A stretch of DNA of 38,717 nucleotides from contig NW_026570575.1 of NCBI RefSeq assembly GCF_019649055.1, forward strand, positions 1 to 38,717, in the 5' to 3' direction. The notes under the pieces were generated by a model. It was not told where the DNA came from and did no database searches. It saw only the letters and a program-made list of their open reading frames with translations. Numbering within the stretch: the stretch's first letter is position 1; each line of letters opens with the position of its first letter. Position numbers and translations under genes: made by a program. This document shows, in pieces, positions 9,132 through 37,098 of the stretch. This stretch comes from Paramacrobiotus metropolitanus. Taxonomy: Eukaryota; Tardigrada; Eutardigrada; Parachela; Macrobiotidae.

Positions 9132-9275
9132 ATATATTCTTATGCGCTTTTCAACCGGGTGCGCCGCAGTTTACGTGACCGTGGTTCATTTGCTCGGTCA
9201 TTTGGATGTTGTCTTTGATCTTCTGCGCCGACGAGAGATCGTACGAATTAATGAGCAAAGACTGGCCCGCTTTGA
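9132..9275 (+). pseudogene. Relic Z: 3' end of exon 2 of the membrane-protein family
   Basis: The sequence aligns by eye, at roughly 80 percent, with the 3' end of copy E, including CGGTCATTTGGATG followed by TGTCTTTGATCTTCTG, and encodes VVFDLLRRREIV. It carries the same 7-bp deletion as copy E relative to A, B, C and F. No other part of the gene was found upstream, so only the final part of exon 2 survives. Confidence 0.75.
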
Positions 9276-9714
9276 CGTTTTGATAAGCTACTCCATAATA
9301 TTATTAAACTATGTAGTAATATTACTATTTAGTAATTAATATTACTATTTAGTAATATTATGGCTACTCGTATAATTCGAATTCCATCATCCGTGACGTG
9401 CCTTCAGTTTTGCAATCTAACTTTCGACCGTTCAACTGTTTTTCCTATCTAAAATTTTGTTTGTTTATATATATTCGTAAGCTTTTTTTGCACGCGTTCC
9501 TGCTTTTACATATTGATAACGCGTGGGGTAGCGATATGGCTGATAAAAATTAGTTTTTGAACAGTGCACAGTGGGCGCTGGCTAGTTTATGGTGGAATCC
9601 AGGTTATGGATGAATAAAATTCCTTCTACCGACACAAGGTCGACTATCTCGAGGGCGACGGCAAGAACACATAAGAAAACATAACACGTAAGAAACTTAA
9701 GAAACTACGACGGT
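9276..9714. other. Intergenic, with an AT-rich short tandem repeat
   Basis: At about 9312-9361 the word TAATATTACTATTTAGTAAT is present twice in tandem and is partly self-complementary. Nothing else is recognised before the candidate gene that ends at 9715. Confidence 0.6.
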
Positions 9715-10349
9715 TTAGCCAAGCGGTATCTTGATGTCGTAACGGGTTGGCAGCATTTCTGTTTGGCGTAGTGACGGTCGACAAAATTCATCGAAGAAAC
9801 AGCGGACCACCGTGGCATCCATAGGCTCCGAGGTGGTTTCTCTAGGCACATTGATTCTCAGAACATCGAACTCGGCTTCGATAAACACTGTACGGCTGGC
9901 GCCTTGATCCTGCCGTTCTTTAGACTCCGGGCGGCAAATTATGGGAATGTGTCCTCAGTGGCCACAATCGAGCGCGGCCAACATCTCTGGCCCAACAGCA
10001 CGCCTATCGGTGGACCAAGCGGTCACGCGATAGTTCTATGGACTCCTTTCCGTCGGCTCACCCGCTGCCGCTGGTGTCACCCGCCCGCCGCGCATTGTAC
10101 CCTGTAGTGGCAGTGATGTCACGAGAGTGTGCTGTACGCTGTGGCATCTGTAGTGTTATCCTTCTAGCATGGTAACTGATGTAGCAGTGGCGATCCACCA
10201 CCTCTAGTCGTGACCGGTTGCCATTAAATTTTCAAGATTTTAAATAAATGATCAGAACATGGAATCACATGCGAGTTACACGGTGTAACTTACACCGCAA
10301 CATATACTACCATTATACCATAGACAGTCAAGCAGCAGAGAAATTTCAT
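9715..10349 (-). CDS. Candidate small secreted protein, three exons
   Basis: Proposed exons are 10349-10294, 10147-10062 and 9953-9715; all joins are GT-AG and in phase (126 residues). Exon 1 encodes a signal-peptide-like start (MKFLCCLTVYGIMVVYVAV) and ends at a strong donor (GTAAGT). The last exon is open for 79 codons and looks coding (FDVLRINVPRETTSEPMDA, then VVRCFFDEFCRPSL), ending at TAA 9715-9717. Four cysteines lie after the predicted leader. The family is unknown. The acceptor at 9954-9955 has a weak pyrimidine tract, so the exact start of exon 3 is uncertain. It lies between relic Z and copy A. Confidence 0.42.
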
Positions 10350-10880
10350 CTAAATTCGCCGTCGAAGGCGCTGTCCCCAGTATAGATGCTGTGTATCCCC
10401 GCTGGACATCTGTGCTGATCATTGACGCAGATATTCTGTCGCCCACGTTTCGCCGGTTTCCCGCTGAATCCTTTTCCCAATTCACTAAGCAGCCGGGTGG
10501 CTTCCGGTATTTATCCGATCCGCCAGTATTATTACAATTGCGGTGACTCGCAGATCGCCACATCTCAGCAAAGCGTATCAGCATCAGCCCTCTGCCGTCT
10601 GATCCGAAAAGGCTGTGTTGTAAAAGAAGCTTGCGAAGTGTGGAAAGCTCGAGGTGGAGGTAGCTACTCGCGTTACTGTCTTTCCTATTTTAGCTCTGAA
10701 TGCATTGACAAAGCAGACTAGGTAAACAAGCAAACGGTACGGCGGCGAGGAAAGCGGTCAAAGGGCCAGTCCCGCACATATTCTTGGTCTGCTCCCTTTC
10801 AAATAGTCTTACTGTCCACACTTATGAGAGACTCCTCTGTAAAGTCTCCTTGCATATGCACTACGGCAAAGGATAACTGG
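10350..10880. other. No gene recognised
   Basis: Open frames on both strands overlap here but have no motif, start context or splice signal that would favour any of them. Confidence 0.5.
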
Positions 10881-10980
10881 CCTGCCCTTCCCATTGACTT
10901 TTTTGAAAGGGAGCAGGGAGCTACAGGACACCTGCCCTTCCCCGTGTCTTTTTTGAAAGGGAGTAGAGAGCTGCAGGGCA
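10881..10980. repeat. Two-copy 50-bp tandem repeat
   Basis: Units 10881-10930 and 10931-10980 both begin CCTGCCCTTCCC and share TTTTTTGAAAGGGAG; they differ at only a few positions. An inverted partial match (GCTCCCTTTCAAA) lies at about 10791. No function is evident. Confidence 0.85.
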
Positions 10981-11218
10981 CAAATGCCTACCGGTTGAAA
11001 AAGGCGATTTGGACCGGGCTGCAAGAGCGTCACAGAGGACGGTCAGCAGGGAAGAAGGAATCTGATTCAGACCGCTTGCCGTTTTTATTGCTTTTGGACC
11101 GTTACGCGAGGCTGAGATGTAGGGATTTGCGAGTCACCGCAATTGTAATATATTACTGATTTTCTGCTGCCGTAAACCGTGGTACGAACTGCTTAGTTTT
11201 GCCCAACCGTTACACCAT

Positions 11219-11245
11219 ATTCTCTTCAAAATTCGATTTGTTCTT
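11219..11245 (+). promoter_or_regulatory. Conserved element just upstream of copy A start
   Basis: The sequence TTCAAAATTCGATTTGTTC directly precedes the ATG. Related forms precede copy C (26463-26490) and copy F (37101-37130 on the minus strand, TTCGAAATTCGAGTTGTTC). Conservation across paralogs suggests a core promoter or 5' UTR element; this is inference from three copies. Confidence 0.4.
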
Positions 11246-12511
11246 ATGATCTTATCAGCAACGCCGATAGCGATGGCGTTTTGGGCCAAGGACGACTCCG
11301 CCATCCGAACAGTGCAGAATCGTCCGTCTCTTAACCGCTCTCGCTCGTGTGGCGAATTTTTCACGTTTGATCCTGGCTTTGACGATGTAATGAGAATAGC
11401 TCTCCAGAAGAACTCGTATGCCAAACGTCTCAAGCCTCTTATACGACAGTTGTTAGTGCTATCTGTTGTCCGCAGCCTGCTTTTATTCACCGCCTACGTC
11501 ATCGAATATGTGCGATTTAACTCTGGTGAAGATGAAAATCAACCGGAGGTAGGGCTTAAAAGCTATCAGACTGAAGGGTACCATGCGAAATTACTTTGGC
11601 GAAAGTAATTTAAAAATAACGCCGGAACTACGAGTGTTTTTTTTTATTTTCGAACCGATTAACGAGCCAAGCGACCAGAAAATTTGTGGGAGATTAAAGC
11701 GTAATCCTAGTCGTTCTATCAAATCGTCAGCACACTCGTTCCTAATAATTATAACGCTGTTTAATACAAACTTTATCAACAGCTGATTGTTTAGTTACAA
11801 TTCTATCAATAATATACGACTCTGGTTTTTCAGTCCGACAAGCGTCCATTTATCCTGGAGCTTCTTCCGCACTTTCTGGGAGCCGGTGTTGGATTCTCCC
11901 TTGGCGATTTAATGAATGCTTTGGTGCTGTGGTACAGTGCGCGGAAGCTGCATGGCAAATGGTTTCTGTCGGCAGCAGATGTATGGCAGGGCACGTGGCG
12001 TTATCTGGGCTGTTTGGAAAGTGTGTTCATGCAGGACTTTATAGGCGTTCATCTGGTGTTCGCCATCCTCGCCACTGCCAGCTTAGTGATTGCAGCGGGA
12101 ATCGTTCAGTTATATTATCCTGGATTTTTCATCTCACTGTGGCTGTACGTTGCCTATAACTTATGGAACTATTATACCGTGGATACCGCGAGTTACGAGT
12201 TGTTCCTAGCTACTCTCCCGTGTATCGGTTTATCAGTGTTCAGCTCGGTGATCGCTTGGAAATGTCGCCGCTTGATTCTCCCGTTTCGACAAATTTGCTG
12301 CCTTTCCGAAGCCGATCGCTACTTTGTTGTGGATAGCATCATAGGGCCCATCATCGGGCCCTTTATTGGGCGGTTATACTGGAATTCTTACGTGTTTTTT
12401 TACCGAGTGTGCTACCGTTTAGAGGACCTTGTCGATTGGTCAACCTTTTGGGTGGCGTACGTTGTCTTTGACCTTATCCGTCGGAAAGTAGTCTTCTGTA
12501 TTAATGACTAA
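11246..12511 (+). CDS. Membrane-protein family copy A (intact)
   Basis: Exons 11246-11548 and 11834-12511 join in phase 0 across a 285-bp GT-AG intron (326 residues). Exon 1 has DDSAIRTVQN, then RSRSCGEF at 31-38, a pattern that could be phosphorylated by basophilic kinases, and a hydrophobic segment at about 68-89. Exon 2 has hydrophobic stretches at about 111-134, 170-193, 198-212, 223-243, 268-292 and 300-315, so five to seven membrane passes are likely. Landmarks are LVLWYSARK, KWFLSAAD, LYYPGFF, WKCRR, an IIGPIIGPFIG run and RRKVVFCIND at the C-terminus. There is no signal peptide. The ATG at 11246 aligns with the start of copy F; an in-frame ATG at 11273 is an alternative. I do not recognise the family; receptor, channel and transporter roles are all open. 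Confidence 0.85.
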
Positions 12512-12817
12512 GATTAGTCCGTTCCATCGTCTCGATGCGCTATGATTCCTTACTGCCGTCCGACAATCCCAGCGTTATTACCATTCTGCAAGATAATTTT
12601 TTACGGACTTATTGTACAGTATTTTTCGGTTAATATTTATGTACAGAGTAATGTACTTATTTTATTGTACAAGGTTTACTTTTGGCATGGATTCTAATTC
12701 GTCGTGTCAACTGTCAAGCCCTTTGCGTTCCAAAGTATAAGTTGAAACTTTTAGCTTGTGTTGATACGATTAAACATTTCCAGTTAACAAATGATTCTTA
12801 TCTTGGTTCGGTGTAAA
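12512..12817. other. 3' flank of copy A
   Basis: The first ~60 bp resemble the 3' flanks of copies B and C, sharing words such as CCGTCCGACAAT versus ATCCGACCGTCCG. No clear AATAAA lies close to the stop codon. No other feature is seen. Confidence 0.45.
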
Positions 12818-13096
12818 TTAAATTTTGTGCAACATGTTAATAGCTTTTTCAAGGCAACCTTGGAATTGCCCCTCATCGGCATCAGGTAGCCGGCTCCGGA
12901 GCAGATCCTTCTCAAAACAAATGCATGTCACAACCAAAAACAAATGTTCTCCGGACTTTCTGAATCAAACAGCGTAAACAGATTTCGGTATCCAAAACTT
13001 ACCGACTCGGATCACACAGTCGGGTGACTCGAAGACTGGTTGCAATAAAGATTGATCGCCATCCTTCGGTTCCTGGAAATTGGTATTAAATGCCAT
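12818..13096 (-). CDS. Candidate 74-residue protein, two exons, unknown
   Basis: Exon 13096-13003 encodes MAFNTNFQEPKDGDQSLLQP and ends at a strong donor (GAGTCG then GTAAGT). Exon 12948-12818 encodes EHLFLVVTCICFEKDLLRSR, then LPDADEGQFQGCLEKAINML, and a TAA. The join is in phase with a 54-bp intron. The acceptor (CCGGAG) lacks a good pyrimidine tract; a better-looking site (TTCAG) 12 bp upstream would be out of phase, so the model may be wrong at this junction. The gene lies downstream of copy A on the opposite strand. The protein is not recognised. Confidence 0.4.
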
Positions 13097-13234
13097 CCCC
13101 TCTGGAAAATTCCCTTTTATCTAAAGGATACTGATCGAATTCTATTTACGTAGTAGCCTTGGTGTTTTGATGGCTTCAGTGACCCGTGAGACTTATATCG
13201 ACCCCTTTAAAAGTCTGCCCATAAAAATCATAAT

Positions 13235-14110
13235 CATGATTATCGTTATTATCTTGACCACTCCGTACACTATCTTTCACCTTTTATTCCGTACACAATC
13301 TTTTTCATTACATTTCATTCCGTGCACAACCTTTTTGCACTATCTTTCATTCGGTACACTATCTTTTTGCGCATTAACTTCGACTTCTTACACAACCATT
13401 CGGCACTGCCTTTCGTTTTTAAAATTTTTCACAGCGAAATTATTTCTGGATTTGCTGTTTCTTCGTAAACAGTTGTTATTGCTGCATAATTCAAACCATC
13501 ATCAGCAGTTCTAAAATCCTGTGAGTAAATAATTTTAGACGCCCGTGTGCCGGTTTTCTTCGCAGGGTTTGGACAGCGCCATTTTTTCGTTTCCCACTAT
13601 TCTGTTAAGGACTTAATATACAGATAGATAGAATGAAAAAGACAGCGTGTAACATTCGTAAATCTACCCAGCTGTTTGTTTTTGAACCAATTTTCGACTA
13701 AATGTAAGTGTAAGTGTCTCCCTGCATGTGTAGACAGTGTAAGAAGTTGCTGCTGGGTCTTTTCCCGTAAAGGGCATTCTCTAACTTATTGCAGTAAACG
13801 TTTAATAAGCCTTTTGCGCATCGATCGTGGGGATGTATGTTTGTGAATAAATCTATTCAAATCTGGTTGAAATCCATGGAAAACTGGAGACAGGAATCGA
13901 TTGTTGCTCTTCTGAAGTAATTTAGCGAAAGTATTTTAAATATATGTAATATTACGGTAATAATTTAAGAAGTATAATAGTGCACTGAGCGAAAGGTAGC
14001 GTGAATAGAGTACCGAATGAATGGTAGCGTCAAGGTAGTCTACCGAAAGAAAGGTGGTGCCCGAAAAGGTTGTACACGCAATGAAAGATATAATCACTAT
14101 ATAATAATCG
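13235..14110. mobile_element. Probable foldback element with tandem-repeat arms
   Basis: At 13258-13380 several degenerate ~22-bp units of the form TTCATTCCGTACACTATCTT are present. At about 13985-14090 the reverse-complement form (CCGAAAGAAAGGTGGT, CCGAATGAATGGTAGC, GAAAGATATAAT) occurs. The two arrays are inverted relative to each other, with about 600 bp between them. No transposase and no target duplication were identified, so the ends are approximate. Confidence 0.5.
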
Positions 14111-14938
14111 CGTAAGCCTTAACGAAATTCCCACTCTGTCGAGTTCGTCAGCCAGATCCACTCAATCAAATTTTCATGTCTACGTATCATTCGATAGCCC
14201 TTGACGAGTAGATTTGCCATCGCAAGTTAGTTTTTAGAGAAAAGCAAACGTTTTAAAGAAAACTTCAAAACACTTCAACATAGAAGGCCAATGAGAAGAG
14301 TTGAGAATCCACCACTGCAAACTGACCACCTCACCACTGTTTCGACAACTAAAATGCTTTGTTGGGACGTTCTTGAATCCTACCCACGTACTATTCCGTA
14401 GTCTTAATCCTTGAATTAAGTTATAAATTTTTCATCAACAAATGGCTTCAGAAAAAGTAAGATTTGGAAAGAAGACCTGACAAAGTCTGCGAGTATGGAA
14501 CTGCTCAACCTGTTTCTCAACTCAAGGAGTTTTCATTCGCAGTGGCTTGACCAGTTTAAAGTTGTAACGTTTGCACGGGCGGTTGCCACTGATACTGATA
14601 TGGCGTCGAAGACAAAATTTGCGACGACCTGCGAGTTGCGACTCGCAAGTTGCGAGTTAATTTGTTTTCTGTGGAAAATGATATTCGAGAAAGGTAGCAT
14701 GTTTAGGGTTTTGGGATAGCAAGCTGACAGTTGCATATCCATATGAGCTTATTCAGCTTAGGGTACTTAGTTAAGTAATTAGTGTTAACTGCAGCAGATG
14801 TATATCTGTACCTTACAAGTTTTTATTTGAGAGATTACTTAGCGGTTGTTATGCGCGTCATCCAGGGCGGAATGCTTCATTCTTGAGAGCCAGGAATTTT
14901 GCGAAACTTAAAATAATTTCGTCAGTCTTTCATAGAAG
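14111..14938. other. No gene recognised
   Basis: Short open frames at 14495-14742 on both strands overlap a locally repetitive GCGAGTTGCGACTCGCAAG sequence and are not supported as genes. Confidence 0.5.
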
Positions 14939-15621
14939 GCGGAGCCGCAGGCGACGCCGAACTGCGGCGCGAGCGGAGCTCGCGGAGCAGCAAGCGATGC
15001 GGCCTGCTTTACATTTCCGACTAAACGGGCGATGAAAGAAATATTACAGTATTCTAAATGGCTAATTATTTTTGTAAAAAGTAATTTACTATTGATAATT
15101 GCGTAGTGAATACGAAGCAACAGAGAACCACCTGAAAATCGGGAAATTTTTTATAATTTGATTGTCGAGCGGGAGTGTTTGATTCATTACGTAGAACTCC
15201 AGACTGCAACTGCAAGGCTAATGGTACGTACATTGAAATTCGAAACAGCTGAGCGCGCGAATCGCGATGGTAAAAATGACCCGGTATTTTAATTACAGAG
15301 ATACTACTGTGCAGCTGCGCAAATAAAATTTTGATTGATAGCTGATCGGTTATTTACTGCTATGGTGCGAAGGATTTCTTCTGAAGAACTAAACCGATTT
15401 CCGGAAAAAATTTGGAAAATTTCAGATGCAAATGTCTATACTTCGTATAGGGTTGTCGTGGCAGTCCAGTAACCTGTAACATTATAATAACAGTAACATG
15501 ATAAACCTGTAATCTCCTCATAAAACTACTTAGATCTATAGAAGTAGTTGAAAATCATCATTTTTTTGCATTAACTCTTCTTCTTTTATTTATTCCGCGC
15601 AATTTGCGCGGGGTCAGCTAG
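14939..15621 (+). mobile_element. Helitron-like segment 1, 3' end at 15621
   Basis: The 3' terminus has the Helitron signature: a GC-rich hairpin (CCGCGCAATTTGCGCGG, 15595-15611), then about 6 bp, then CTAG at 15618-15621, with T as the next base. A GC-rich block at 14939-15003 resembles another at 16269-16323 upstream of segment 2, so it may be an internal element of the family. The 5' end (a TC after T) was not located; the start given is only that of the GC-rich block. There is no Rep or helicase gene, so any element is non-autonomous. Confidence 0.6.
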
Positions 15622-15714
15622 TCCTGTATAAAATAAAAGAATAAGATAGTGTGGGGTCACCGTGTTTGCGCACCTACCCAGAACACATTGCTGCACTAAT
15701 TTTTGTTATCTATG

Positions 15715-15965
15715 TAACATTTGATACCCCTAAATGAGTACGTTTTTTCAAAATTAGTCTGATTTGAGAAAACAATAAGGTTTTAAAGAAAACTGTGGAA
15801 AACATTGCTCTACAAAGTCTACGGAACATTGCAACAGCCAAGCAGACAATTTGAAATTGCTCCGTTACCAGTTGGTCGTTAAGTAGCTGCCTCATGAAGT
15901 GGTGGCTCAGTTTATACGTGACAGCCCATCCACGTGCTGGTACAGTACTTTGCACTCTGCTAGAA
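15715..15965 (-). pseudogene. Coding-like relic shared with 6345-6600
   Basis: The minus-strand frame contains WAVTYKLSHHFMRQLLNDQL, then LAVAMFRRLC and VFFKTLLFSQIRLIL. It is open from 15955 to 15710. A second minus-strand frame just upstream in reading order (16227-16036, MSNEKVIRTVDLEAAVKWYE) could be a separate exon, but no splice join was established. The plus-strand copy near 6.4 kb is more decayed. The family is unknown; it is either a dispersed repeat or a duplicated host exon. Confidence 0.4.
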
Positions 15966-16268
15966 AGACTTCAGATCGGATAATTAAGGCCTTGTGGATA
16001 AGTGATGTTATTCGTGTACTGACTGCTTTTTGTTGTCATTTTTTCATGGAAGTACAGAGAACGTTTACAAAACAATGGTCTGCCAACCAACAAATTAGCT
16101 GTTTACAGTTGCAATGGGAGTAATATTGCTTCGGTAGCTTGCCAGCAAATGGTGAGAAAACGGTTTGTTCGTACCATTTTACTGCAGCTTCTAGATCTAC
16201 CGTTCTAATTACTTTTTCGTTACTCATTAACTTTTGATAGTGTTAAATAAGTTTTTCATGCGCGGTCA

Positions 16269-16699
16269 GGCGGAGCGGCAGGCGAAGCCGTGCTGCGGCG
16301 CGGTCGGGGCTCGCGAAGCCCAAGAGAGGCATTTGATTTCTGTAAAAAACCCGTCTCCAGTGACAGACGTGTACGGAGCGGAGGATTATCAAGATACGGA
16401 CTTAAATAATATTATATAAGCATAATTTCCACACTACAAGGTACTTCAGTTTGCATAATTTATGAAAAAGTGAGATAAACCCTGCTTACGGCATGACAAC
16501 TGGGAGCCGTTCATTCTGTACGCAGGTTAATAAAATACGTAACATCGTACGGTATATCTTTAATTTTGCTAAAAAACCTTTGAAGACAAATCCAATATTG
16601 ATTTTCGCTCTATTTGCATACCGGTGTGTTCTGCAGTTAATGACGCAGTTTATTTATAGCCGATTTATTGCGCGCAATTCGCGCGGAGCTGCCAGTTAG
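16269..16699 (+). mobile_element. Helitron-like segment 2, degenerate 3' end
   Basis: A GC-rich block (16269-16323, GGCGGAGCGGCAGGCGAAGC) like that of segment 1 is followed about 350 bp later by a hairpin (GCGCGCAATTCGCGC near 16670-16685) and the terminus AGTTAG at 16694-16699, one base from the CTAG consensus. The 5' end was not found. Confidence 0.45.
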
Positions 16700-16758
16700 A
16701 AGCTTATTTGGTATTTGTGAGTTCGCATCTTTTGCATTTGATAACCCATCGCTGATTA

Positions 16759-16788
16759 ATTCCGCGCATTTTGCGCGGGGTCCACTAG
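16759..16788 (+). mobile_element. Helitron-type 3' terminus 3
   Basis: Hairpin CCGCGCATTTTGCGCGG (16762-16778) is followed by GGTCCA and CTAG (16785-16788), with T next. It lies only 89 bp after the end of segment 2, so this is either a very short element or a second Helitron end nested beside the first. Confidence 0.6.
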
Positions 16789-16866
16789 TTACGAATAATA
16801 CTAATTCGGCACAGTGAACTATCGCTCATAACGGTCCACGGAGCAGATGTCCGCTATAAATATAAA

Positions 16867-18523
16867 GGCCCGCGCTGAACCTTGGATTCGGATTCGGAGT
16901 TGGATTACTCAAACTTGGATTCGGATTCGGATTGGATTACTAAAACTTGGATTCGGATTACTCAAACTTGGACTTCGATCTCTTAACTTGGACTACAAAA
17001 GTTGCATTACTTAATTGGATAAGTTGGATTACTTAATTTGGTTTACTTAACTTGAATTACTGAACTTGGACTACATATTTCTGGGCTTGAATTACGTTTT
17101 TTCATACCGTTTCTCGTGTTTATACCTCTCCTTTTCTCAGGGTATTCTTAGGCTTCTTAGGTTACTTAGGTTTCTTAGGTTTCTTAAAAGAAACCTAAGA
17201 AACCTTAGAATAACATGAGAAAAGGAAAAGAATACACACGAGAGAACGGTACAAAGAAAAACGTAATCCAAGCCCAAAAAATGTAATCCAAGTTTAGTAA
17301 TCCAAGTTAAGTAATCCAAATTAAATAACCCAACTTATAAAAGTCAAGTAATCCAACTTATGTACAGGGGTGCCGGGCCAAGTTCGGACAGTTAAAAAAA
17401 TTTCTCTACTTCCACCAATGAAATCCAAATTTGTTTTACCACTTTTGCGTGATAGTTGTTACGGCCGTGGTGTTGACAAGTGGACGGCGGCTATCGTGGC
17501 TTTGATTAATTGTCCATGTGCATGGTTTGCATCCTCATTAGTACGAGTATTATTATGACCATATCTTTGTGAAGATATTTATGGCCATACGTGTGTGAAG
17601 ACATTTATGTCTTCATCGGATTATTCCTTATCTGCTGTGTAAGATCTGACCGCTGGTCAAGTGGGGATAATGAGAAGGCAGGATGAATGTGGCCTGCAGA
17701 TGTGGTTAATGTGAAATGTAGTGATGGGATTGGTGCATGTGTTTTCCTGTCTTTGTGGCTGTATGCGAATATGAGCAAATTGATGTGGTATATAAGTTGA
17801 TGCAACTGTGGGAAGGCGGCACAGTTGTCGGGAGTGCAGCTGTCATGGTGGAAATAAAAGTTAAGCTTTTTCCCTTAGTGTACGTTACGGTGGTAGACGT
17901 AGTACATTAGGGGTTTTATATCGTAGTGCATGGTCTGTAGCACCTCCATTAATTTTGTTTCCATGCAAAAAGACGAGGCTCAGGGAACGGGAGCCAAATT
18001 TCAAATTTAATTTTTGGTGCAAAAATCACACTGCTTACTAAGAAATAATCAAGTTCATTCGACAATTTTTTAAAAATTGAAGGAGGCTGCAAAGTTTTAA
18101 ACGATAGCATGGTCACCTAGCGGGACCTTCTTCCTTCTCTTTTAAGCGCCTACTCAAGCAGTTTCTCAACAAATGCGTTCAGCAGAATGATGTCAGTTGC
18201 TACATTTTTCATAGGTGCAGTTATAAGCGTAAAAAAAAGGCCGCTACCCCTTCCCCTAAAATCTCGCCCCGCCCCTTATTGTCATCGCAAACATGTTCAA
18301 CTTTGATACTTGTGGATTTGCAATTAAAAGTTGTACAAGAAAACACAAAAACAAAAACAGAGTTGCCTATGGTGATTTTTTTAAATAAATTTTACGCAAG
18401 TGTCCGAACTTGGCGCGGCACCCCTGTAATTCAAGTTAAGAGATCCAAGTCCAAGTTTGAGTAATCCGCATCCAAGTTTGAGCAATCCAACTCCGAATCC
18501 GAATCCAAGGTTCAGCGCGGGCC
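16867..18523. mobile_element. Long palindromic foldback element, split by a later insertion
   Basis: The outer ends are near-perfect inverted copies starting GGCCCGCGCTGAACCTTGGA. The sequence is one continuous hairpin centred near 17183 (CTTAGGTTTCTTAAAAGAAA). Both arms are built from units such as TTGGATTACTCAAACTTGG and GGATTCGGATTCGG. The right arm is interrupted at 17365-18426; removing that insertion leaves about 596 bp of palindrome. No reading frame supports a transposase. No flanking target duplication was identified. Confidence 0.85.
17365..18426. mobile_element. Nested TA-flanked element with ~27-bp TIRs (1062 bp)
   Basis: TIRs are CAGGGGTGCCGGGCCAAGTT at the left and its near-perfect inverse ending GGCACCCCTG at the right, extending through GTTCGGACA. 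TA lies on both sides (17363-17364 and 18427-18428). Removing the element with one TA restores the foldback motif GTAATTCAAGTTAAG, which shows the target was TA. TA targeting suggests Tc1/mariner-type movement. No intact transposase frame is seen. Confidence 0.8.
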
Positions 18524-19526: not shown

Positions 19527-20942
19527 ATGGCCGTGGATGATTCCGCAGTTCGAAATGTACAGAAACCGCTGAATCTTATCCGCTCTCGCTCGTGCGATGA
19601 TCTCTCCATGGTTAATCCTGCTTTTCACGATGCGATGATTACTGTTGTCGAGAAACTATTGTACGTGAAGCGTCTGACGTCCCATATAAGACATCTGGCA
19701 CTGCTATCTCTTGCCCGCAACCTGCTTGTTTTTGCAACCTTTGCCGTCGGATATATGCCGTCCCTATCGGACAGCAAGGCAGAAGACCTGGAACAAGAAA
19801 GCCAAGGAAAGGTATGCTTAATAGTTTCAAAATTAAAAGAGATCATCTGCTCACAATCTTTTATTTGTACTGTGCCTTTAAATATTTTCATATGTACAAA
19901 TATATTCGCCCATGCACGAAATCCGAATGCAAATATTGCTGTCCTGCCGGCTGCTGCTGGATTTGGCAAGTCAGCAACAGCTGGCAGGACAGCAAATATT
20001 TATACACGGCGATAGTACCGTTTTCATGCTTATCCCGGCTAATACAGCAATATTTCATTGGTTTCTTTGTTTAAGTGATTTTGAATTATTTAATAAGTAG
20101 CCAATTCCAAATAAATTGGGTGACATGGAAGTACCAGGAACAAAGTAATCAAATAATCCAAAATCACTTAGATTTCATTGGTTTCTTGATTTAAGTGATT
20201 CGGAATAATTTATTTACTTTGTTCCTGGTACTTCCATATCACGTTGTTTATTTGAATTAGCTACTTAATATATATCAGCGCTGGCACAATCATAATTTGA
20301 CAATTTGTTTTTTTTTAGTCAGATACCTTTCCATTCCGCCTGGCGCATTGTCATATCACTGTGTTCTCCTCCCTTATCGATTTATTCCATAAAGTCATGC
20401 TGTGGTACATAGCGCGAAAGGTGCTTCGACAATGGCATCTGTCGGCAGCGACTATGTTAGAAAGCATGCGAATTTCTGTCGATTCTCATGAGAGGGCTTT
20501 TCTGAAATCACAGATGGAACTGATGGATGTGCAACTGATGAATGGCACACTGGCATCTGTTGGCATGCTGACTGGAGTGGCCAGTTTCGAGCTAAATTAT
20601 CCTGGAACATTCTTCGCTCTCTGGTGGTCTGTTGTTAATGCAGTGGGGCAGTATTATACTACCGTGGATACGGTTGGGTATGAATTCTTAGGTACTATCC
20701 CATTGCTCGTTTTGGTGGGATTCAGCTTGATTATCACCTTAAAGTGTCGCCGGACAATTCGTCTTTGCTGGCCCGAGATGCAGGATGATAACTCGTACCA
20801 GATTCTGTCTAGGGTGATCGGGTGGTTATACCGTGTATTTCGCAATGTTTTATTGGACCTTGTTGAATGGTCAGTCATTTGTGTGCACTATGTTGTTTTT
20901 CATCTTCTGGGCCGGGAAGAAGTCTTCTGTGTTAATGCTTAA
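19527..20942 (+). CDS. Membrane-protein family copy B (intact, most diverged)
   Basis: Exons 19527-19811 and 20319-20942 join in phase 0 (302 residues). The intron is 507 bp and contains two hairpins. Exon 1 reads MAVDDSAVRNVQKPLNLIRS, keeps RSRSCDDL, and ends with a hydrophobic LLSLARNLLVFATFAVGY. The start of exon 2 is the most altered of all copies, but LWYIARK, NYPGTFFALWW, LKCRR and a C-terminal FCVNA remain. The ATG at 19527 lies directly before DDSA, so this copy has the shortest N-terminus but one. Frames are fully open, so it is probably functional. Confidence 0.82.
19929..20002. repeat. Hairpin in copy B intron
   Basis: An imperfect inverted repeat pairs AAATATTGCTGTCCTGCC with GGCAGGACAGCAAATATT across a short loop. 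It lies within the intron of copy B. Confidence 0.7.
20097..20264. mobile_element. Hairpin MITE-like insertion in copy B intron
   Basis: Arms 20097-20170 and 20192-20264 are imperfect inverted repeats of about 73 bp with a 21-bp loop; TGGAAGTACCAGGAACAAAG pairs with its complement. A direct repeat of TTTCATTGGTTTCTT (20052 and 20173) also occurs. No target duplication was established. Confidence 0.7.
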
Positions 20943-21080
20943 AGACCAACCACCTCGAGCGACCCAATGCAGTCCGATTCCTTTCGCCAATCCGACCGTC
21001 CGCTACTCTAATATAACTGCCAGCAAATTTATTTCAATCTTTTCGTCTAATGTCATATTTTTCTATTACTTATCTTCACA

Positions 21081-21317: not shown

Positions 21318-21356
21318 ATTTTTCTGTGTCGCAATCAGTGTACTTGGATTTATGCC

Positions 21357-21362
21357 AATAAA
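21357..21362 (+). terminator. Polyadenylation signal AATAAA
   Basis: Canonical hexamer 40 bp after the stop codon of the 51-residue candidate gene. Confidence 0.55.
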
Positions 21363-24929: not shown

Positions 24930-25003
24930 TTGACAGTCCGCAATATCTACGTTGACTCCAGAAAATATGCGAATACTTATGGAATAATGGACGAGCCCAC
25001 ATC

Positions 25004-26518: not shown

Positions 26519-27850
26519 ATGGATGACTCCGCGATGCAAAATGTACCGAATCCGCCGGATCTCGTCCGCTCCCGGTCGTACAGTGATTTGTCCATGCTTG
26601 ATCCTGCCTTCGATGATTTAATGAGAAAAGCTGTCGAGAAGAGCTCGTATGTCAAGCGTTTCAAGCCCTTTACACGACGGTTGGTATTGCAATCTTTCAC
26701 CCGCAGCCTGTTGTTCTGCATAGCTTTTGCAATTATGCGAGACCTATCGCACGACAAGCGTGAAAACCAGGAAGGCGAACACCAACAGCAGGTAAGTTTT
26801 ATCGGTTTACCATTAAGAATATCCTCTGAAAGACAGTACCGTGCGATTATGCGAACATCAAGAATTTTCGAACGTAAATCTGTACGAGTAACATTCACTT
26901 AACTTAAAAAACCAGGATGCCAATGTATGGCGTGTGTTTTTAAATAAAATCATTCAGCAAACTGCTTCTAATAAACATCAGAGTACAGATATGTACAGTA
27001 TATAAATAATTCTGTTATTCTATACATTACTTGTTTTAATGAGCTTAATAACTTTAAAGGTAAGTGCCAACCAAAAACAAAAAAAATAGTTACGAGCGCG
27101 GGTACACTTAGTTATAGTTAAGACCATGCAGCTTAGTTAGTTGCAAGTGTGCTAGTTATATAATTATATGACTGTTATGTTATAATAATTATATGACTGC
27201 CCTTTTTCTAGCCAAGCCAACGTCCGTTCCTCCTAGAGTATCTCCCTTTCGCTATCGGCGGATGTGCTGGTTTCGCCTTTGCCGATTTCGGCAATGCTGT
27301 CTTCCTGTGGTACAGTACACGCAAGATGCGCGGGCAGTGGTTTTTGTCGGCTGCCAATATGCGAGACGGAATGTGGGTGTCTGTTGGCTGGTTTGAAAGC
27401 GACTGTTTGCTACTGAACACGGGACTGTATTTAACGACCACCGTACTGTCCACGATCACCACGGTGCTGGTCGTGGGGATTGTCGAGTTCTATGTTCCGG
27501 GATTCTTCCTTTCTCTATGGTGGCATGTCGTCCATGTTCTGTGGCACCATTACATCCTGCATGTACCGGCCCGGCTCGAACTGATATTCGTTATTCTACC
27601 ATGTGCCGGCTTAGTGGTGGCGGACTTTGTTACCGTTTGGTACTGTCACCGAGCCATTCTGCAGTTTCGACAAATTTGCCGGGTGGACTGGCACGACGAT
27701 TTTGACTTTGATTGGTCGATCATTGTTGACCGAGTGTACTACAGCGCACTGGACCTTGTCAATTGGTCGGTCATCTGGGTGGGGTATGTGACCTTTGTAC
27801 TTCTTCGCCGGAAAGTAGTGTTCTGTTCTGTTTTAATGACTAAAGGGTAA
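26519..27850 (+). CDS. Membrane-protein family copy C (intact)
   Basis: Exons 26519-26791 and 27212-27850 join in phase 0 across a 420-bp intron with a strong donor (CAG then GTAAGT); 303 residues. The start is MDDSAMQNVPNPP; the frame is open further upstream but without another ATG. RSRSYSDLSM has Tyr where other copies have Cys. Exon 2 has VFLWYSTRKMRGQWFLSAAN, EFYVPGFFLSLWWHVV, WYCHRAI where the others have CRR, a short acidic DWHDDFDFDW and a C-terminal RRKVVFCSVLMTKG. The GPIIG run seen in A and F is absent. Its 3' flank resembles that of copy B. Confidence 0.85.
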
Positions 27851-28238
27851 CCCACTCGAACGACCGGATCTGCTTAGACTCCCTTCACCGATCCGACCAT
27901 CCGCGACTTTACCGCAGTTCTGAATATGAATATTTTTGAGTCTTGATGTTTTTCATTATATATTATGTAGAGTACATAAATATCCTTCTGCAACAGCTTT
28001 TTGGAAGGTTTTTCTTCATAAACGTAGTAAAGTATGGCAATTCATAAATATTTGGAAATTCAAGGCGTCGGCGCGGTACTCGTTTTGGAACAATGGATGG
28101 AGCGGGAAAATAAAACTCTGTTATATACACAAGAAAAATGCATAGTTTGCTGCTCTATGTATATCGGAAACGCATTGTATAACACTAGGAACTAATGCAA
28201 TATACATTATATACTGAATAATTACAGTGCCTTCTTAC
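27851..28238. other. 3' flank of copy C, no other gene
   Basis: The first ~60 bp are conserved with the region after copy B (CCACTCGAACGACC versus CCACCTCGAGCGACC, then ATCCGACC). Nothing else is recognised. Confidence 0.5.
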
Positions 28239-28889
28239 GAGGGAGATACCCGAACACGTCCGCGTCAGATCAGCATACACTTGGTAACATTAGAATCCTT
28301 AGAAATTCAGCTATTTTCTTCAAGAATCAAAACACCCCCAGATAAAGAACTCGAGTTTAGGGATCTCGGAGATGCTAACACAGATATGATGGCTGACTTC
28401 CATCGAAATTTCAGCATGCGCCATACGCAATGTCCAGCCTAGCTACGCCATGCGTTACGGATAGCCTGGCTTTCAATCTGTAGATTCTGTATTGGTTTTC
28501 TTGAGAGCTGTCTTACCTATTTTGCCCTATCGCGCGCACCAGCATCCGCGGTTGCATTGATCTCTATGCAGCCAGTCGATGCTGTTGCGCTTAATGAGTT
28601 AAAAAACTGCGATAGCTATCGATAAAGCGCTGTTTAACTTCTCGCTGAAAGACGGTTGCGCAATTTCGCATCCGTACAGAGGCGCCGTATGGCTCTGTAT
28701 GGCGTCTGCTGACGTTTCGATGGAAGTCAGCCATCATATCTGTGTTAGCTCCTCAGAGATCCCTAAACTCGAGTTCTTTATCTGGGGGTGTTTTGATTAT
28801 CGAAGAAAACAGCTGAATTTCTAAGGATTCTAATGTTGCCAAGTGTATGCTGATCTGACGCGGACGTGTTCGGGAATCTCCCTCTTTAA
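28239..28889. repeat. Long inverted duplication, ~180-bp arms and ~290-bp spacer
   Basis: Arm 28239-28416 (GAGGGAGATACCCGAACACG onward) is matched by the reverse complement of about 28704-28889, with few differences, including AACACCCCCAGATAAAGAAC. The right arm includes the end of the leftward coiled-coil frame, so the left arm is an inverted copy of that frame's 3' end and downstream sequence. Confidence 0.88.
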
Positions 28890-31036: not shown

Positions 31037-31195
31037 TCAGTTCTTGAAACAACCTATGATCATAACAACGGATTATAGAGAGAAAGTCCTCCACCATGTC
31101 GGTCTAACACGCATGGTGTGGAACGGGTTAAGACTCAAGAACTCAGTTCGCAGAATGGTAGTACAGGCGTGGACGGCCGGAGCGTTCGAGTGCAC

Positions 31196-32210
31196 TCATC
31201 TGTAGTCATTAATGCAAAACGCTTCTTTGCGGCGCAAAAGGTCGTATATAACATAGTCCACCCAAATGACCGACCAATCGACAAGGTGAAGTACAACGTC
31301 ATACACCCGGAAAAAAGTGCTGTTCCCATCATAGCCGTGATGAAGCCCATCATAGCCGTCCTATGATGGGCTTCATCCGGCTCGCCAAAAGCTCCGACGT
31401 CAGCCCAGCAAACTTGTTGAAACGGCACAATACTCGGGGACACCTCCCGGCGGTTATCAAGCCACAAACCGCTAAACCGATAGACGGGACGGTAGCCAGG
31501 AACATGTCATACCCCGCCGAATCCACGTAATACTCATGCCACAATACAGACACTAGAGAGAGTACAAAAATCAAAGATGATAGAACTCGATAATCCCCGC
31601 TGCAGTTACCATGGCGGCCGTACCGACTATGGCATTAGACCGCGTCTGCATCGAAGGTTTGTCGAACCGTTATATTGCTTGTTCGTTTAAGGCTTCATCT
31701 AAACACAGTTTGCAATGTGTCGAGCTTGTTAATCGGCCCAATAACGAAGAAAACCGTACCTCGCAATTCACTTCTTTAGTCGGTAGTAATTGAAATAAAA
31801 CTGCCAAAAGTGGACTCCAATCGGTCAACAGTCAGGTGCTGCGACTTTCTCTGACAAGGTAACCTATAAGGATAACACGTAAATTTACCGTTTACAGCGT
31901 ACCGCGTCTTGGATTTCACGTTCCTGGTTTTCCCAAGCGACGTCGTTTCGTCTCCGTATTCCGGCTCGTCGTCGTTTTCCCACTAAGCTAGGCTCAGCTA
32001 GCAGTTGCATACATTCGACGGCAAAGGCTGTGCCTAGTAGCAAATTGCGGACAAGAGATAGCACTACCAACTGTCGTATAAGGAGGGAGCTTTAAACGTT
32101 TGGCGTATGAGTTTATCTCGAGATCTCTTCTCTCAAAAGCAAGATCAAACGTTGAAAAACCACGTTGATTTACTCGGCTTGAAAATCACTGTTGGCTTTT
32201 TACGGTTGAT
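31196..32210 (-). pseudogene. Membrane-protein family copy D (broken)
   Basis: Exon 1 remains at about 32210-31903. The region equivalent to YAKRLK...RQL is recognisable but has a 4-bp insertion, and the RSRS segment is decayed. VVLSLVRNLLLGTAFAVE and ENQEREIQD survive, as does the donor (GTACGC). Sequence matching the copy F intron follows (GAAGGTTTGTCGAACCGTTA, and AGGTGCTGC further in), but it runs directly into the middle of exon 2 (GTAAMVTAAGIIEFY then a stop). The end of the intron and about the first third of exon 2 are therefore deleted. Later exon 2 is split across frames (LWHEYYVDSAGYDMFLATVP, then WTMLYTTFCAAKK). A perfect 17-bp palindrome arose at 31340-31378 where other copies encode GPIIG. 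No intact product is possible. Confidence 0.85.
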
Positions 32211-32377
32211 TCTGGATAATAATATTTATTGTTTAACCGTAAGCTTTAGAGAATAAATGCGTAGCAGTAAATAGATCGACGCTATAAACCAAATCGAAAG
32301 GTACCCAGTATAGTCCAGTATCGTCTGACTTCCCATATTGGCTGACCTTTCAGTCCAGTCGTGTTGTGACTTTTAAA

Positions 32378-32593
32378 ATGTTGTTAATCAGCAATGTTTT
32401 ACGCATATATGGAAACCACGTGAACACCAGACGTACAAACTTGTCAACAAATTGGATATATGAAGGTAAGAGCGCAATTAGAGTTATAAAGGCAGATCGC
32501 AGTTAGAGCGATGTTGGCGCAATAATTTGTTATTGTTCCACAGTTGGATCGCTTTTATTACACCAAGCAGCAGCACAGTTTATAAAGACTTAA
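32378..32593 (+). CDS. Candidate 45-residue protein, two exons, unknown
   Basis: Exon 32378-32465 encodes MLLISNVLRIYGNHVNTRRT, then NLSTNWIYE, and ends at a good donor (GAAG then GTAAGA). Exon 32544-32593 follows a pyrimidine-rich acceptor (TTGTTCCACAG) and encodes GSLLLHQAAAQFIKT before TAA. The join preserves phase with a 78-bp intron. The N-terminus is hydrophobic and basic with no acidic residue, like a mitochondrial targeting sequence; this is inference. It lies between the 5' end of broken copy D and the 3' end of copy E. Confidence 0.35.
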
Positions 32594-32775
32594 GCATGAG
32601 ACGTAAAATTTGCAGGTTAAGGTTAAGGAACAAGGAACACAATAAGGAAAACAATATATTACACAGAAAAACGCCAAACGATGCAGACAACAAATTAAAG
32701 AAACCAGTTTGTAGAATTGATGGAAATTCGCATCGGTTAACGATTTAAGGAACTGTAGGACATCGGACAAGTTAG

Positions 32776-34136
32776 TTAGTCTTGCGTTATTACTACAGAC
32801 GATTTCTCCTCGCCTGAGAAGATCAAAGACAGCATCCAAATGACCGACCAAAACGACCGATGGTTACGTACAATGTAGCGCGCTCGGTAGAAAAGCACAA
32901 GAAAATTCCAATATAACCAGTTTGTCAGTTCAAAGTTAATATCGGCGTGCATCTCGGCCCAGAAGATTTGTCGAAACTGGAGAATCGTTCGACGGCACTT
33001 CCAAGTGGTAATGCAGCTACACACCGCTAAACCGACACAGGGGAGAAGAACCACGTACGTTTCGTAATGTGCCACAATGGCGATATTATAATGCCACAAT
33101 TCGTAGATAACATGTAACTTGACCGCGAGCAAAAATCCCGGATAATAAAACTGGATGATCCCCGCTAGCATCACCATGTTAACAGTGGCTGCAATGATGA
33201 TCGACCACTGCAGATCCATAAGAAATTTCAAGGTGGCACTTTCACTACAGCCTACAGAAACCAGTATGTTTTCCCGCACATTGACCGCCGAAAAGAACCA
33301 TTGTCCGTGCATGCTGCGCGAAGAGTACCACAGCAGAAAGGTGTACTCTAACTCGACAAAAGAGAACCCGAGGCCGAGTGCTTCAGGGACGTACATATAT
33401 CTCACGAGAAAGGGCAGCTGACCAGGCTAAAACAAAAAGTAGTCGTATAGTTAGTGTGTCTGTGAAGTTTTTAAGTGAACAGTAGGTTCGTAATCAGCAT
33501 GGTTGAAACAGACTGTACAGATAGTACGAACTTCACCATGAAGTAACGAAGTATATTTTTACGATGGCGGCTGTCTACTCAACTTTGCATACTTAAATAA
33601 AATAAGTAATAGAAGGTCTGATATTTTTGGATCCTGGAAATTTTCAGAATCATGGAAATGGATATTGGGCAATTGGATTATGAAAATTATGGAATTAACT
33701 ATTACGGTTTCATTTATTAGTACGCATATTTTTCTCAAATGATTTAAATACGGAATGATTTTATATGTTGAAACCTTTTGGAAAATATGATATCCTTTAA
33801 CTGTAGAAGTTTGTAGCTTACCTTCTCTTGGTTTTCTTGTTCCTGGTTTTCTTGCGTGTAGCCAGACTGGATATATTCCCAGATTAGTCTATATACGCAG
33901 GCCAAGGGTGTGACTAAAAGCAGCAGGTTGCGGGCAACAGACAACAGTGCCAGCTGTCGTATAAAGGACCTGAAACGCTTGGCATATAATCTCTTTTCGA
34001 TCGTTCTTTTTAAAGCATCATCAAACGCAGGATTAAACGTCGAAAAATCACCACACGACCGAGAACGGATAAAATGCGCCGGTTTTTGCACATTTGGGAT
34101 CGCGGAGTCATCCTTGGTCACTTTCGCTTCCGGCAT
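32776..34136 (-). CDS. Membrane-protein family copy E (altered C-terminus)
   Basis: Exons 34136-33822 and 33426-32776 join in phase 0 across a 395-bp intron (donor AAG then GTAAGC, acceptor TTTTAG); 321 residues. Exon 1 has KDDSAIPNVQKPAHF, RSRSCGDFSTFNP and a repeated QENQEQENQEK tail. Exon 2 has LLWYSSRSMHGQWFFSAVN, QFYYPGFLL, WKCRRTILQFRQIFW. Near the 3' end a 7-bp deletion (about 32830-32845) shifts the frame after WSVIW, so the conserved VVFDLLRRK.VFC end is replaced by SLIFSGEEKSSVVITQD. The old ending can still be read in the next frame (AVFDLLRRGEIVC). The protein may work, but the loss of the conserved tail could make it inactive. Confidence 0.8.
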
Positions 34137-34512
34137 GGCTTCAAAACTATTCGGGTTTTGAGAAATTTAATAACAATCGGAACAAAGAAAATGGCATGAG
34201 AAGTGTGCCAAACGGTTAAAAGAGTGTTTAACGCAATAGTCAAGAGCAAATCAACAATCTCTGCATGAGCGAGGTTATAACTCTATTTCTTAGAAGATCA
34301 TACCTGATGCTTGTTGAGCCTGGCTTGCATTATTAAATTATTGTGCTGGCTCGTAGACGTGACTAATGGTCCGATCTGTGTACTCACCAGCTTGTCTGTT
34401 AACTACATGTCACGATTAGCGCAGGGGGCACGGTTTACATTTATATTGTTGTTAGTTATACACACAACCGTTCATATTTTAATGGCCCCGCCGCACCTGC
34501 TGCAAATAACCA
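34137..34512. other. 5' flank of copy E, no other gene
   Basis: AAATTTCTCAAAACCCGAAT on the minus strand, just before the start codon, is a weak match to the conserved upstream element of copies A, C and F. A plus-strand frame at 34311-34544 lacks support. Confidence 0.4.
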
Positions 34513-34596
34513 TTGCCGATGCTTTAGGAGTACGAGAGGAATGAATGAATGGATTGTTCATTCATGCCTCTCGTACTCGTAGATCACGGCAATGAA
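34513..34596. repeat. Hairpin-forming inverted repeat
   Basis: GAGTACGAGAGG and ATGAATGAA pair with TTCATTCAT and CCTCTCGTACTC across a 7-bp loop, with outer CATTGCCG/CGGCAATG also pairing. It may be the core of a small MITE or a transcribed hairpin. Confidence 0.75.
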
Positions 34597-34984
34597 ATAA
34601 GTTACAATTAGCCTTACGCCGTGCAGTATCGCACTAAAGACATGTGAATGAAAAGTTATTATTCATTATTCTGTATATTCAACATCACGCTGTACATTAG
34701 TTTTCGAAAAGGTTTGTCGCAGGAACAGCGGAATCAAGCACCGAACCTACTTCCGTAAAATAATCTATTAGAGGCATAATAGTGATAATACTCGAGAAAC
34801 TAAATAAACTTTATTTAGTAGAATTTACAGTGGATGAGATGAAGGAAAATTTAATAATAGTGAATGATACTAAGTATCCAGTTACATTTTGCAAGTTAAG
34901 TATTGTACTACTCTGTATATGTAACAGCAAATAACTGCTTTGAGCGACAATGTAGTACAGTACAGTAAAAGCAAGGTACAATGT

Positions 34985-35139
34985 AGGACGAAATGGTCGC
35001 ATAGCCCCATACCCAGCATTCTGTACGCAAGCGGTGCAGTGCACTTGTACGAAACGGATATTTTGAACTCAGTCGTACAGTGCACTGCGCTGCATTCGTA
35101 CTGAATGTGGAGATGTTGGGTATGCGACCATTTTGTCCT
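34985..35139. repeat. Imperfect inverted repeat, ~75-bp arms
   Basis: The outer parts AGGACGAAATGGTCGCATA and (inverted) AGGACAAAATGGTCGCATA match closely, and inner TGCAGTGCACTTGTACGA pairs with TCGTACAGTGCACTGCG. The centre is near 35065. It is MITE-like; no target duplication was seen. Confidence 0.72.
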
Positions 35140-35484
35140 AAGCTGTAAGCCAGTATGTACAGCACAGTGCTTAACCAAACAATAATAGTCTTTATTAATA
35201 ATCAATGCACAAATCAGGTGGAAGAAAAATAAACAGTACATTATTCAACAACAATAATTGCACCGTATGTGGTGATGGTATTGGTACGATGTATATGGAT
35301 TGTTTCACTAACATTTCGAAAAACATCATAAGTAGAAAGAAGTCTGCAGAATAAGTTATGTACACACTACGGAATACGGAACACAGCAAATACCTATAAA
35401 TAAACAGGAAAACATTAAACGATAAGTGTAAAGAAATTAGCTCGCAAAATTGTTAAGCTGCAGACGATCGGATCGTTCAGATCT
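35140..35484. other. 3' flank of copy F, no gene recognised
   Basis: AT-rich, with a few TGTACAG words shared with the neighbouring inverted repeat. No reading frame is supported. Confidence 0.5.
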
Positions 35485-37098
35485 TTAGTCATTAACACAA
35501 AAGACTTCTTTCCGGTGCAGAAGATCAAAGACAACATAATCCACCCAGAAGACCGACCACTCGAAAAGGACCAGTAATACGAAGCACACCCGGCAAAATA
35601 GCGCATAAGAACTCCAGTATACCCGCCATATGATGGGCCCTATGAAGAGCCCAATCCGTCTTGCAATAAGGCTTATAACAAAGTCGCTATCGACTCCGGC
35701 CCAGCACAGTTCTCGAAACGGTTGGAGCGTGTGGTGACTCTTCCAAGCGGGTAATATGCCGCACAGTGCCAAACCAATGTGCGGGAGAGTAACCAGAAAT
35801 ATGCCATACCCCGGCGAATCCACGTAATAATCATGCCACAATACATAGATAGCATGCCACCAGAGAGAGTAGAAGAATCCAGGATAATAGAACTCGATAA
35901 TCCCGACTGCAGCTAACATGCATGCCGTGCCGAGTTTGACGAACGTGGAATACGATCCAAGGCAAACTATCATGAGCTCGCTTTCAAAACATCCTGAATA
36001 AATCCGCGTACCTTGCGACAGATTAGCTGCCGACAGGAACCATTGTCCACGCAGCTTTCGCGCCCAGTACCACAGCGATAAGACATTGAATAAATCGGCA
36101 AAGGAAAGTGCATGGCCTCCTATCCAAAGGAAAGGAAAAAGCTGCAGGAAGAGTGGAGTTCCGTCGGACTAGAAAAACAGTAGTCGATAATTATTATGCC
36201 ATCGCAGGTTTAAGCAACGTAATATCAGAGGGTACTACGCTGAAGGTTTGTCGAACCGTTATGACACATTTCATTTGGGACTTCAGTGAAACCACTTCAC
36301 CCAAAATAGTTGCCATTCGTTCGGATGGTTTACCGGCCCCATCATGTCAAAAACAGCATTTCAAAAAGTACTCCTTTCTAGTCGCTAGATTAAAATGTAA
36401 TGGCATGTACGTGGCCTACAATAAGCCAGGAGGTGCTGCAACCTCCGCTGACCGGGTAAGATAATAAGATAAGTGAGGCTGCTTAGCGGAGCCTACATAG
36501 CTCTACTCTAAAGTCTCTAACTGTTATTCGTATATATACATGATACTGTACAATGTACTCTACAAAACAAACCGTTATCACCGCTTGTGCCGTAAAAGTG
36601 CAGATACATACTGTCATAGTGCCACCCTGACAGTTATACGCCTATACCTATGCTAAAAAGTTGGGAACGTGCACGAAGAAATATTTTTTTGAAGTTTTTG
36701 AATGCGATATGCACAGCCCACCCAAAGAAATTTCTCTGGTTTCTCTTTATCCATTAAAAGGTATGCCTTAATCTTAATTTTACAAATTTAAACCGTACCT
36801 TCCACTGGATTTCCCGTTCCTGGTTTTCCAACATGTCATCGCCTATCAACCGTATATATCTGACAGCAAAAACTGTACAAATTAGCAGGTTGCGGGCAAG
36901 GGAGAGTAGTGCCATCTGTCGTATAAGGAGATTGAGACGCTTGGCATACGAGTTCTGCTTCAGAGCTCTTCTCATCACATCGTCGAAGACAGGGTCAAAC
37001 GTCGACAAATCACCACACGAGCGGGACCGGATAACTTGTTGCGAATTCGGCAAATGTCGGACCGCGGAGTCATCTTTGGTAACTAACGCTACAGACAT
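35485..37098 (-). CDS. Membrane-protein family copy F (intact)
   Basis: Exons 37098-36799 and 36168-35485 join in phase 0 across a 630-bp intron, the longest in the family (donor AAG then GTACGG, acceptor TTTTTCTAG); 327 residues. Exon 1 starts MSVALVTKDDSAVRHLPN and has RSRSCGDLSTFDP and RQMALLSLARNLLICTVF. Exon 2 has SLWYWARKLRGQWFLSAAN, EFYYPGFFYSLWWHA, WKSHHTL in place of CRR, GLFIGPIIWRVYW and HRKEVFCVND. Its intron shares sequence with broken copy D, marking the two as recent relatives. The start codon lies only 56 bp from the LTR of the miniature LTR element, so its promoter region is disturbed. Frames are open and conserved landmarks kept. Confidence 0.85.

Follow-up and report, generated by a model that had tools for sequence, protein, structure and literature searches.

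What kind of protein is encoded by the clustered two-exon genes on contig NW_026570575.1 of the tardigrade Paramacrobiotus metropolitanus (assembly GCF_019649055.1), and does it belong to a known family? We analysed this contig (C355) over its entire length of 38,717 nucleotides, hereafter the window, and ran genome-wide searches over 169,799,020 bases on 533 contigs of the same assembly. The genes belong to a large tandem birth-and-death family of proteins of about 300–330 residues, encoded in two exons and without a detectable known relative. Within the window lie five two-exon copies that are open, together with a broken copy and a relic (Table 1); three open copies and the relic point rightward, two open copies and the broken copy leftward. 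The intron has GT-AG borders and lies in phase 0 at the identical place in 5/5 open copies (285, 507, 420, 395, and 630 bp in copies 1–5, respectively). Coordinates and splice sites thus bear out the inventory and the common intron place given in a first-pass annotation of this DNA. The peptide landmarks listed there are looser than claimed: DDSA and RSRS[CY] occur in 5/5 open copies, YPGF is exact in three of the five (YPGT in copy 2, VPGF in copy 3), CRR is present in 3/5, and VFC in 4/5, copy 4 lacking it through a change of reading frame in its tail.

Table 1. Family members and fold-back element in the window, with strand and counterparts on contig C156; A and B denote the two types of C-terminal tail, and a slash in donor sites marks the exon end
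Feature	Position	Strand	Remarks
Relic, 3' end of exon 2	9129..9293	+	93% to C156:56813-56975; most like tail-B copies
Copy 1 (w1) exon 1	11273..11548	+	ATG 11273 or 11246; donor GAG/GTAGGG
Copy 1 exon 2 + stop	11834..12511	+	225 aa, tail A RRKVVFCIND; homologue C156:59514-60188, 98.1% DNA identity
Copy 2 (w2) exon 1	19527..19811	+	surrounding stretch without counterpart on C156:1-108000
Copy 2 exon 2 + stop	20319..20942	+	207 aa, tail A EEVFCVNA; long tree branch
Copy 3 (w3) exon 1	26519..26791	+	donor CAG/GTAAGT
Copy 3 exon 2 + stop	27212..27850	+	212 aa, tail VVFCSVLMTKG; C156 homologue (64.2 kb) split over two frames
Fold-back (palindromic) dispersed element	28239..28884	.	between forward and inverted halves
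Broken copy	exon-2 remnant 31205-31630 (frameshifts), exon-1 remnant 31909-32197	-	counterparts C156:55928-56230, 47963-48215
Copy 4 (w4) exon 2 + stop	32776..33426	-	216 aa, tail B WMLSLIFSGEEKSSVVITQD; homologue C156:46735-47382
Copy 4 exon 1	33822..34136	-	donor AAG/GTAAGC
Copy 5 (w5) exon 2 + stop	35485..36168	-	227 aa, tail A HRKEVFCVND; homologue C156:44273-44953
Copy 5 exon 1	36799..37098	-	donor AAG/GTACGG

Copy 1 as query returned 110 exon-level matches at E ≤ 0.001 genome-wide, and the likeness within the cluster is therefore not due to chance. The predicted local expansion of the family was supported, as 108 of the 110 matches lie on four contigs, C156 (1–104 kb), C42 (12–75 kb), C355, and C1 (4.117–4.179 Mb); C5 and C50 carry one match each, that at C50:333955 being a broken clade-I copy. 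All matches on C156 have the same direction except fragments at 72.8–73.4 kb. An open exon 2 of 200 residues or more is present in 11 of 27 excised C156 copies (fragments at 66.9 and 73 kb lie outside these 27 loci) and in 5/5 copies of the window. Aligned in reverse, C42 is 96.5–98.9% identical to C156 in the main blocks of C156:5.3–41.5 kb and 90–92% over the first 5.3 kb, and we read it, from this similarity, as a probable second haplotype of C156; the array would then comprise roughly 35–40 loci, fragments included. Some haplotype contigs can be expected to have remained, because the assembly probably derives from ~3,000 pooled animals and Canu options that keep heterozygous variation, followed by HaploMerger2 reduction (PMC8277472). 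Two exon-1 breaks on C156, at 12.0 and 32.5 kb, are missing from the C42 version, so part of the copy breakage may be sequencing error.

Comparison with C156 also bears on the arrangement of the window copies. Window positions 9129-28235 match C156:56813-65283 forward, in blocks of ~93–94% identity and with extra DNA in the window that contains copy 2, while positions 31128-37155 match C156:56816-41719 reversed, in blocks of 79–93%. Because its two halves match C156 in opposite orientations, the layout of three rightward and three leftward copies represents an inversion with respect to C156, and one breakpoint lies near C156:56815. The layout reported in the first-pass annotation is present in the window but not upheld in the form given there, as the homologous C156 copies stand head to tail. 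A real segregating polymorphism, a join made during assembly or a duplication of the locus would each give this layout. The relic is at the same time the left edge of the segment held in common with C156 in forward orientation, and it resembles the ends of the C156 copies located at 4.8, 7.7, 24.3, 38.6, and 47.3 kb (76–87% identity over 59–137 bases). Recombination suppression is not claimed as the source of the window/C156 divergence; C156 and C42 also differ by 8–10% over the first 5.3 kb of C156.

The family is not confined to the cluster described in the first-pass annotation and has relatives on C5, C68, C6, C29, and C67. Two adjacent relatives are encoded on the minus strand of C5, C5a (634068-635375) and C5b (630378-631789). 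In parts of both exons C5a is ~25–37% identical to the window copies, and as query it finds the cluster down to E 1e-13. C5b was found by C5a at E 1.4e-6 and as query finds C5a (E 3e-5) and the cluster only at E ~0.2. Both keep the RSRS-type N-terminus (RNRSYSTLS in C5a and RRSRSCNLTT in C5b, near the start) and the RKEV[FY]C[VI]N[DE] end (RRKEVFCVNE and KRKEVYCIND, respectively, at the very end). A third clade is formed by sequences on C68, C6, C29, and C67, those on C29 (two places) and C67 being partial or broken. The RSRS-type N-terminus and the RKEV[FY]C end are absent from the C68 and C6 members, which end in LKKLRILLCYV and LKKLKIVLCLNPR; the same end is replaced in cluster copies with tail B. 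Profile comparison, which included one shortened C29 member, joined the cluster to the C5 pair (probability 99.7, E 8.3e-26) and the C5 pair to the C68 clade (probability 95.7, E 9.1e-9); the cluster reached the C68 clade only at probability 51.7 (E 1.5e-4, score 37.9). Control scores were at most 15.3 for reversed alignments and at most 21.7 for 30 column shuffles per pair. In copies 1–5, C5a, C5b, and C68 a phase-0 intron follows the first hydrophobic segment at a matching place. From these similarities we propose that the cluster, the C5 pair and the C68 clade form a three-clade superfamily.

Neither Pfam nor PDB gave a credible match. At E ≤ 10, PDB returned nothing for copy 1 or profile A1 and a single ribosomal protein (E 0.093) for profile A3. 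Weak Pfam matches to QcrA_N (E 0.26), VNG_1110C (E 8.8e-4 in 3/25 members), DUF996 (E 0.072 in 2/25 members), and DUF3458_C (E 0.064 and 0.13) were taken as chance. No relative was found on viral contigs in one scan with a single peptide pattern or on prokaryotic contigs in one scan with copy 1 alone, scans that reach close relatives only. Searches for COX1, a tardigrade telomere pattern and Chitin_bind_4 gave no match. The literature covered, mostly titles and abstracts and few subscription journals, contained no such tardigrade family, and the available parts of PMC9145152 and PMC5531438 hold nothing on one. Tandem arrays with fast turnover are already known; the protein family itself appears new. 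If real at the protein level, it would represent a large, fast-turning tardigrade membrane-protein array outside Pfam coverage and a candidate sensory or recognition repertoire.

The coding sequence is under moderate purifying selection. Ratios of nonsynonymous to synonymous substitution rates (dN/dS; Nei-Gojobori with our own script) were 0.41–0.82 in 78 pairs of paralogues, most with dS of 0.6–1.4, and 0.18 in one closer pair. Three intact window/C156 pairs gave 0.67, 0.61, and 0.59 and, pooled, a proportion of nonsynonymous differences (pN) of 0.059 against a synonymous proportion (pS) of 0.092 (dN/dS ~0.63, Fisher p 0.019); the pool excludes copy 3 because its C156 homologue is frameshifted. 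The first-pass annotation had held that a ratio near 1 would argue against function, and all these ratios lie below 1. Between window and C156, indel events were rarest in exon 2 (0.8 per kb), followed by exon 1 (4.6), introns (8.6), and 3' flanks (15.8); copy 5 introns lay outside the comparison, and copies 3 and 5 have 5' flanks that failed to align (56% and 49%). By region (105 pairs of 15 copies), the lowest ratio, 0.35, fell in the N-terminal 33 residues, and the highest ratios fell in exon-2 residues 1–25 (0.84) and 176–200 (0.76); exon 1 of copy 1 includes two surplus intron codons in this and the window/C156 comparison.

The C-terminus occurs in two forms. Tail B, WMLSLIF..G..(SS)V, was found in 14 of 48 exon-2 rows, window copy 4 among them, and the remaining rows have tail A (LLRRK-VFC-ND), a variant of it (five copies, C156 70–103 kb) or an unreadable end. 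The broken C1 copy at 4178.9 kb still shows MLSLIF. At the DNA level, tail B differs from tail A by the loss of ~7 bases after WSVIW, beyond which the DNA stays similar and the reading frame changes. Trees were calculated from 47 of the 48 rows (row C156_55.9, 346 bases, was dropped). With the tail columns included, the 14 tail-B rows formed one starred clade (97/99). Without the tail and its neighbourhood, and with three long rows taken out, 10 of the 14 still grouped together (100/100), and the C1 pair, copy 4 and the homologue of copy 4 were placed nearby without resolution. A single tail-B clade was not rejected without the tail columns (approximately unbiased test, p 0.21 and 0.25). A single origin is not taken as shown, since its support was lost once these columns were removed; one shared deletion, repeated deletion or gene conversion could each have produced tail B, and the near-identical change favours one shared deletion or gene conversion. 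In the first stretch after the deletion (9 rows), pN/pS was 0.21 in the new frame, 1.30 in the old, and 0.61 in the third, and over the whole of tail B (7 rows) it was 0.42, 1.25, and 0.67, respectively; tail A (11 rows) gave 0.31 in its own frame and 1.40 and 1.78 in the others. These values suggest selection in the new frame of tail B and do not prove it, because the samples are small and the rows related. If real at the protein level, the rewritten C-terminus would be a frameshift perhaps turned into a new constrained tail.

The multi-pass architecture with repeated hydrophobic segments described in the first-pass annotation was supported by the hydropathy profile. Averaged hydropathy showed clear peaks in exon 1 (1.79) and exon 2 (1.87 and 2.11) and a moderate one (1.46); the YPGF..WWH stretch is aromatic, and the last segment is weaker (1.32). 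Of the hydrophobic segments, three are clear, one is moderate and two are doubtful. Basic residues precede the first segment, follow the second (RKxRG) and the fourth (CRR), and recur at the C-terminal end, while the first segment is followed by an acidic stretch. Unless the last segment spans the membrane, this distribution of charges favours a cytosolic location of both ends. The cytoplasmic N-terminus of the earlier annotation fits it, and it is from the charges that we infer it. An AlphaFold model of exon 2 from the five window copies was all-helical with a mean predicted local distance difference test score of 46.6, giving no usable confidence.

Our preferred explanation of the whole, put forward tentatively and as somewhat short of an even chance, is a fast-evolving surface receptor or channel subunit. 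The protein would have about four spans, with the RSRS-bearing N-terminus and the basic C-terminal tail in the cytosol, besides the aromatic YPGF..WWH stretch and a final segment that possibly would not cross the membrane. In such a receptor or receptor-channel subunit, paralogues would differ in a diversifying core and retain the same regulatory ends, and phosphorylation at RSRS would govern trafficking or partner binding. We favour this reading because a constrained N-terminus beside a faster-changing core fits it. Going by known motifs, RSRS may be a kinase or 14-3-3 site, and in tail A the Cys four residues from the end may be lipidated. A sensory, chemoreceptor-like role is our guess, from the evolutionary pattern, at the single likeliest function. 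Several points weigh against this explanation. Substitutions between window and C156 are nearly as frequent in exon 2 (5.7%) as in three introns (6.5%), with 11.5% in 3' flanks. A stricter hydrophobicity scale passes only two exon-2 segments and none in exon 1, and a last segment that crossed would put the basic tail outside. The evidence carries nothing specific to sensing, the family has no known relative, and gamete, gland or immune membrane proteins would give the same pattern. Unlikely in its full extent is an undescribed three-clade tardigrade superfamily of cell-surface receptors or receptor-channels whose largest clade diversifies as a structurally polymorphic tandem array. One group of copies would have had its whole cytosolic tail exchanged by a frameshifting deletion, with the new tail then retained under selection, so that a single scaffold would carry two classes of signalling.

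The proteins might instead be gamete or male-tract membrane proteins whose turnover is driven by reproduction rather than sensing, an unlikely alternative with which the fast copy turnover is compatible. P. metropolitanus is reported to have ~2,000 male-biased genes focused on 29 loci, but the only scaffolds named, in the part of PMC11191345 available, are 2 and 5, not those of the array. To a similar degree we doubt a transporter or inner-membrane family expanded for stress physiology. The repeated hydrophobic segments with conserved ends would suit it, as would the desiccation tolerance of the host (PMC8277472). No transporter family appeared among the Pfam matches, however. Fast turnover of copies and alleles is, moreover, unusual for transporter or inner-membrane genes.

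That a known family, such as the gustatory receptors or Orai, has diverged past ordinary detection is improbable. Gustatory receptors (7tm_7, PF08395) have seven membrane spans; Orai proteins have about four, with both ends cytosolic, and resemble the cluster proteins in length and number of hydrophobic segments. The genome contains 36 matches to 7tm_7 on many contigs, of which 32 exceed the cut-off and most fall in long open frames; a single Orai locus was found. Like the cluster, the 7tm_7 proteins are hydrophobic, multi-segmented and present in many copies, but 30 of the 36 matches lie in open frames of 335–449 residues, longer than the two-exon cluster proteins. No match to 7tm_7 at E ≤ 10 was found for copies 1–5, C5a, C5b, and C68. 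Comparison by hhalign with a 7tm_7 profile of three sequences gave probabilities of 0.05–0.23 and scores of 11.0–16.5 against 12.5–13.6 for reversed controls, the score of 16.5 coming from all clades pooled (reversed control 12.5), and homology to gustatory receptors was rejected. Orai (PF07856), considered for a superficial likeness in transmembrane segments 1 and 4, was likewise rejected, as a two-sequence profile gave probability 0.52 and score 17.55, near the reversed controls (17.39 and 16.05). Both comparisons are weak tests because the profiles hold only three and two sequences. The Orai intron lies elsewhere, splitting the stretch ALLSGFAM/VAMVEVQ and not a later loop. These comparisons agree with the first-pass annotation, which had matched the family to no known receptor, channel or transporter, as do Pfam and PDB. 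The sole Orai locus found, C64:141442-142292, has a phase-0 intron and an exon 2 seemingly read in two frames, perhaps through an assembly error or a further intron. Rhodopsin-class G-protein-coupled receptors (PF00001) resemble the cluster in being a large expanded family of the same genome, and no PF00001 match was listed for any scanned family protein; 147 matches were scored of 1939 first-look candidates, clustered at C54:764771-875710 and elsewhere and mostly single-frame. Least probable is a largely decaying array without present function: in 16 of the 27 excised C156 copies exon 2 is not open for 200 residues, dN/dS reaches 0.82 and exon 2 and introns are alike in substitutions, but open frames were kept at dS near 1 with few exon-2 indels, pooled dN/dS is below 1, both tails show frame-specific constraint, and some breaks may be the sequencing errors indicated by C42.

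The remainder of the window is marked by repeats and mobile elements. The fold-back element (~650 bases) is 78% identical to its own reverse complement, folds with a z score of -39.9 against 20 shuffles, and has matches of at least 640 bases at 86–93% identity on 15 other contigs. Two mutually inverted arrays of 57–58 bp tandem repeats, at 38-598 and 3830-4527, enclose an open reading frame with a MULE transposase domain (2441-3211, minus strand); the whole is perhaps a MULE-type element with the arrays as its terminal inverted repeats. Open reading frames of Hermes-type DNA-binding and BED-finger type and a retrotransposon-endonuclease-like fragment, this last scoring under the Pfam cut-off, lie on the minus strand at 23689-24763 and 7428-7907. 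Near the contig end, positions 37154-37396 and 38203-38446 form a direct repeat of 244 bases with 99.6% identity.

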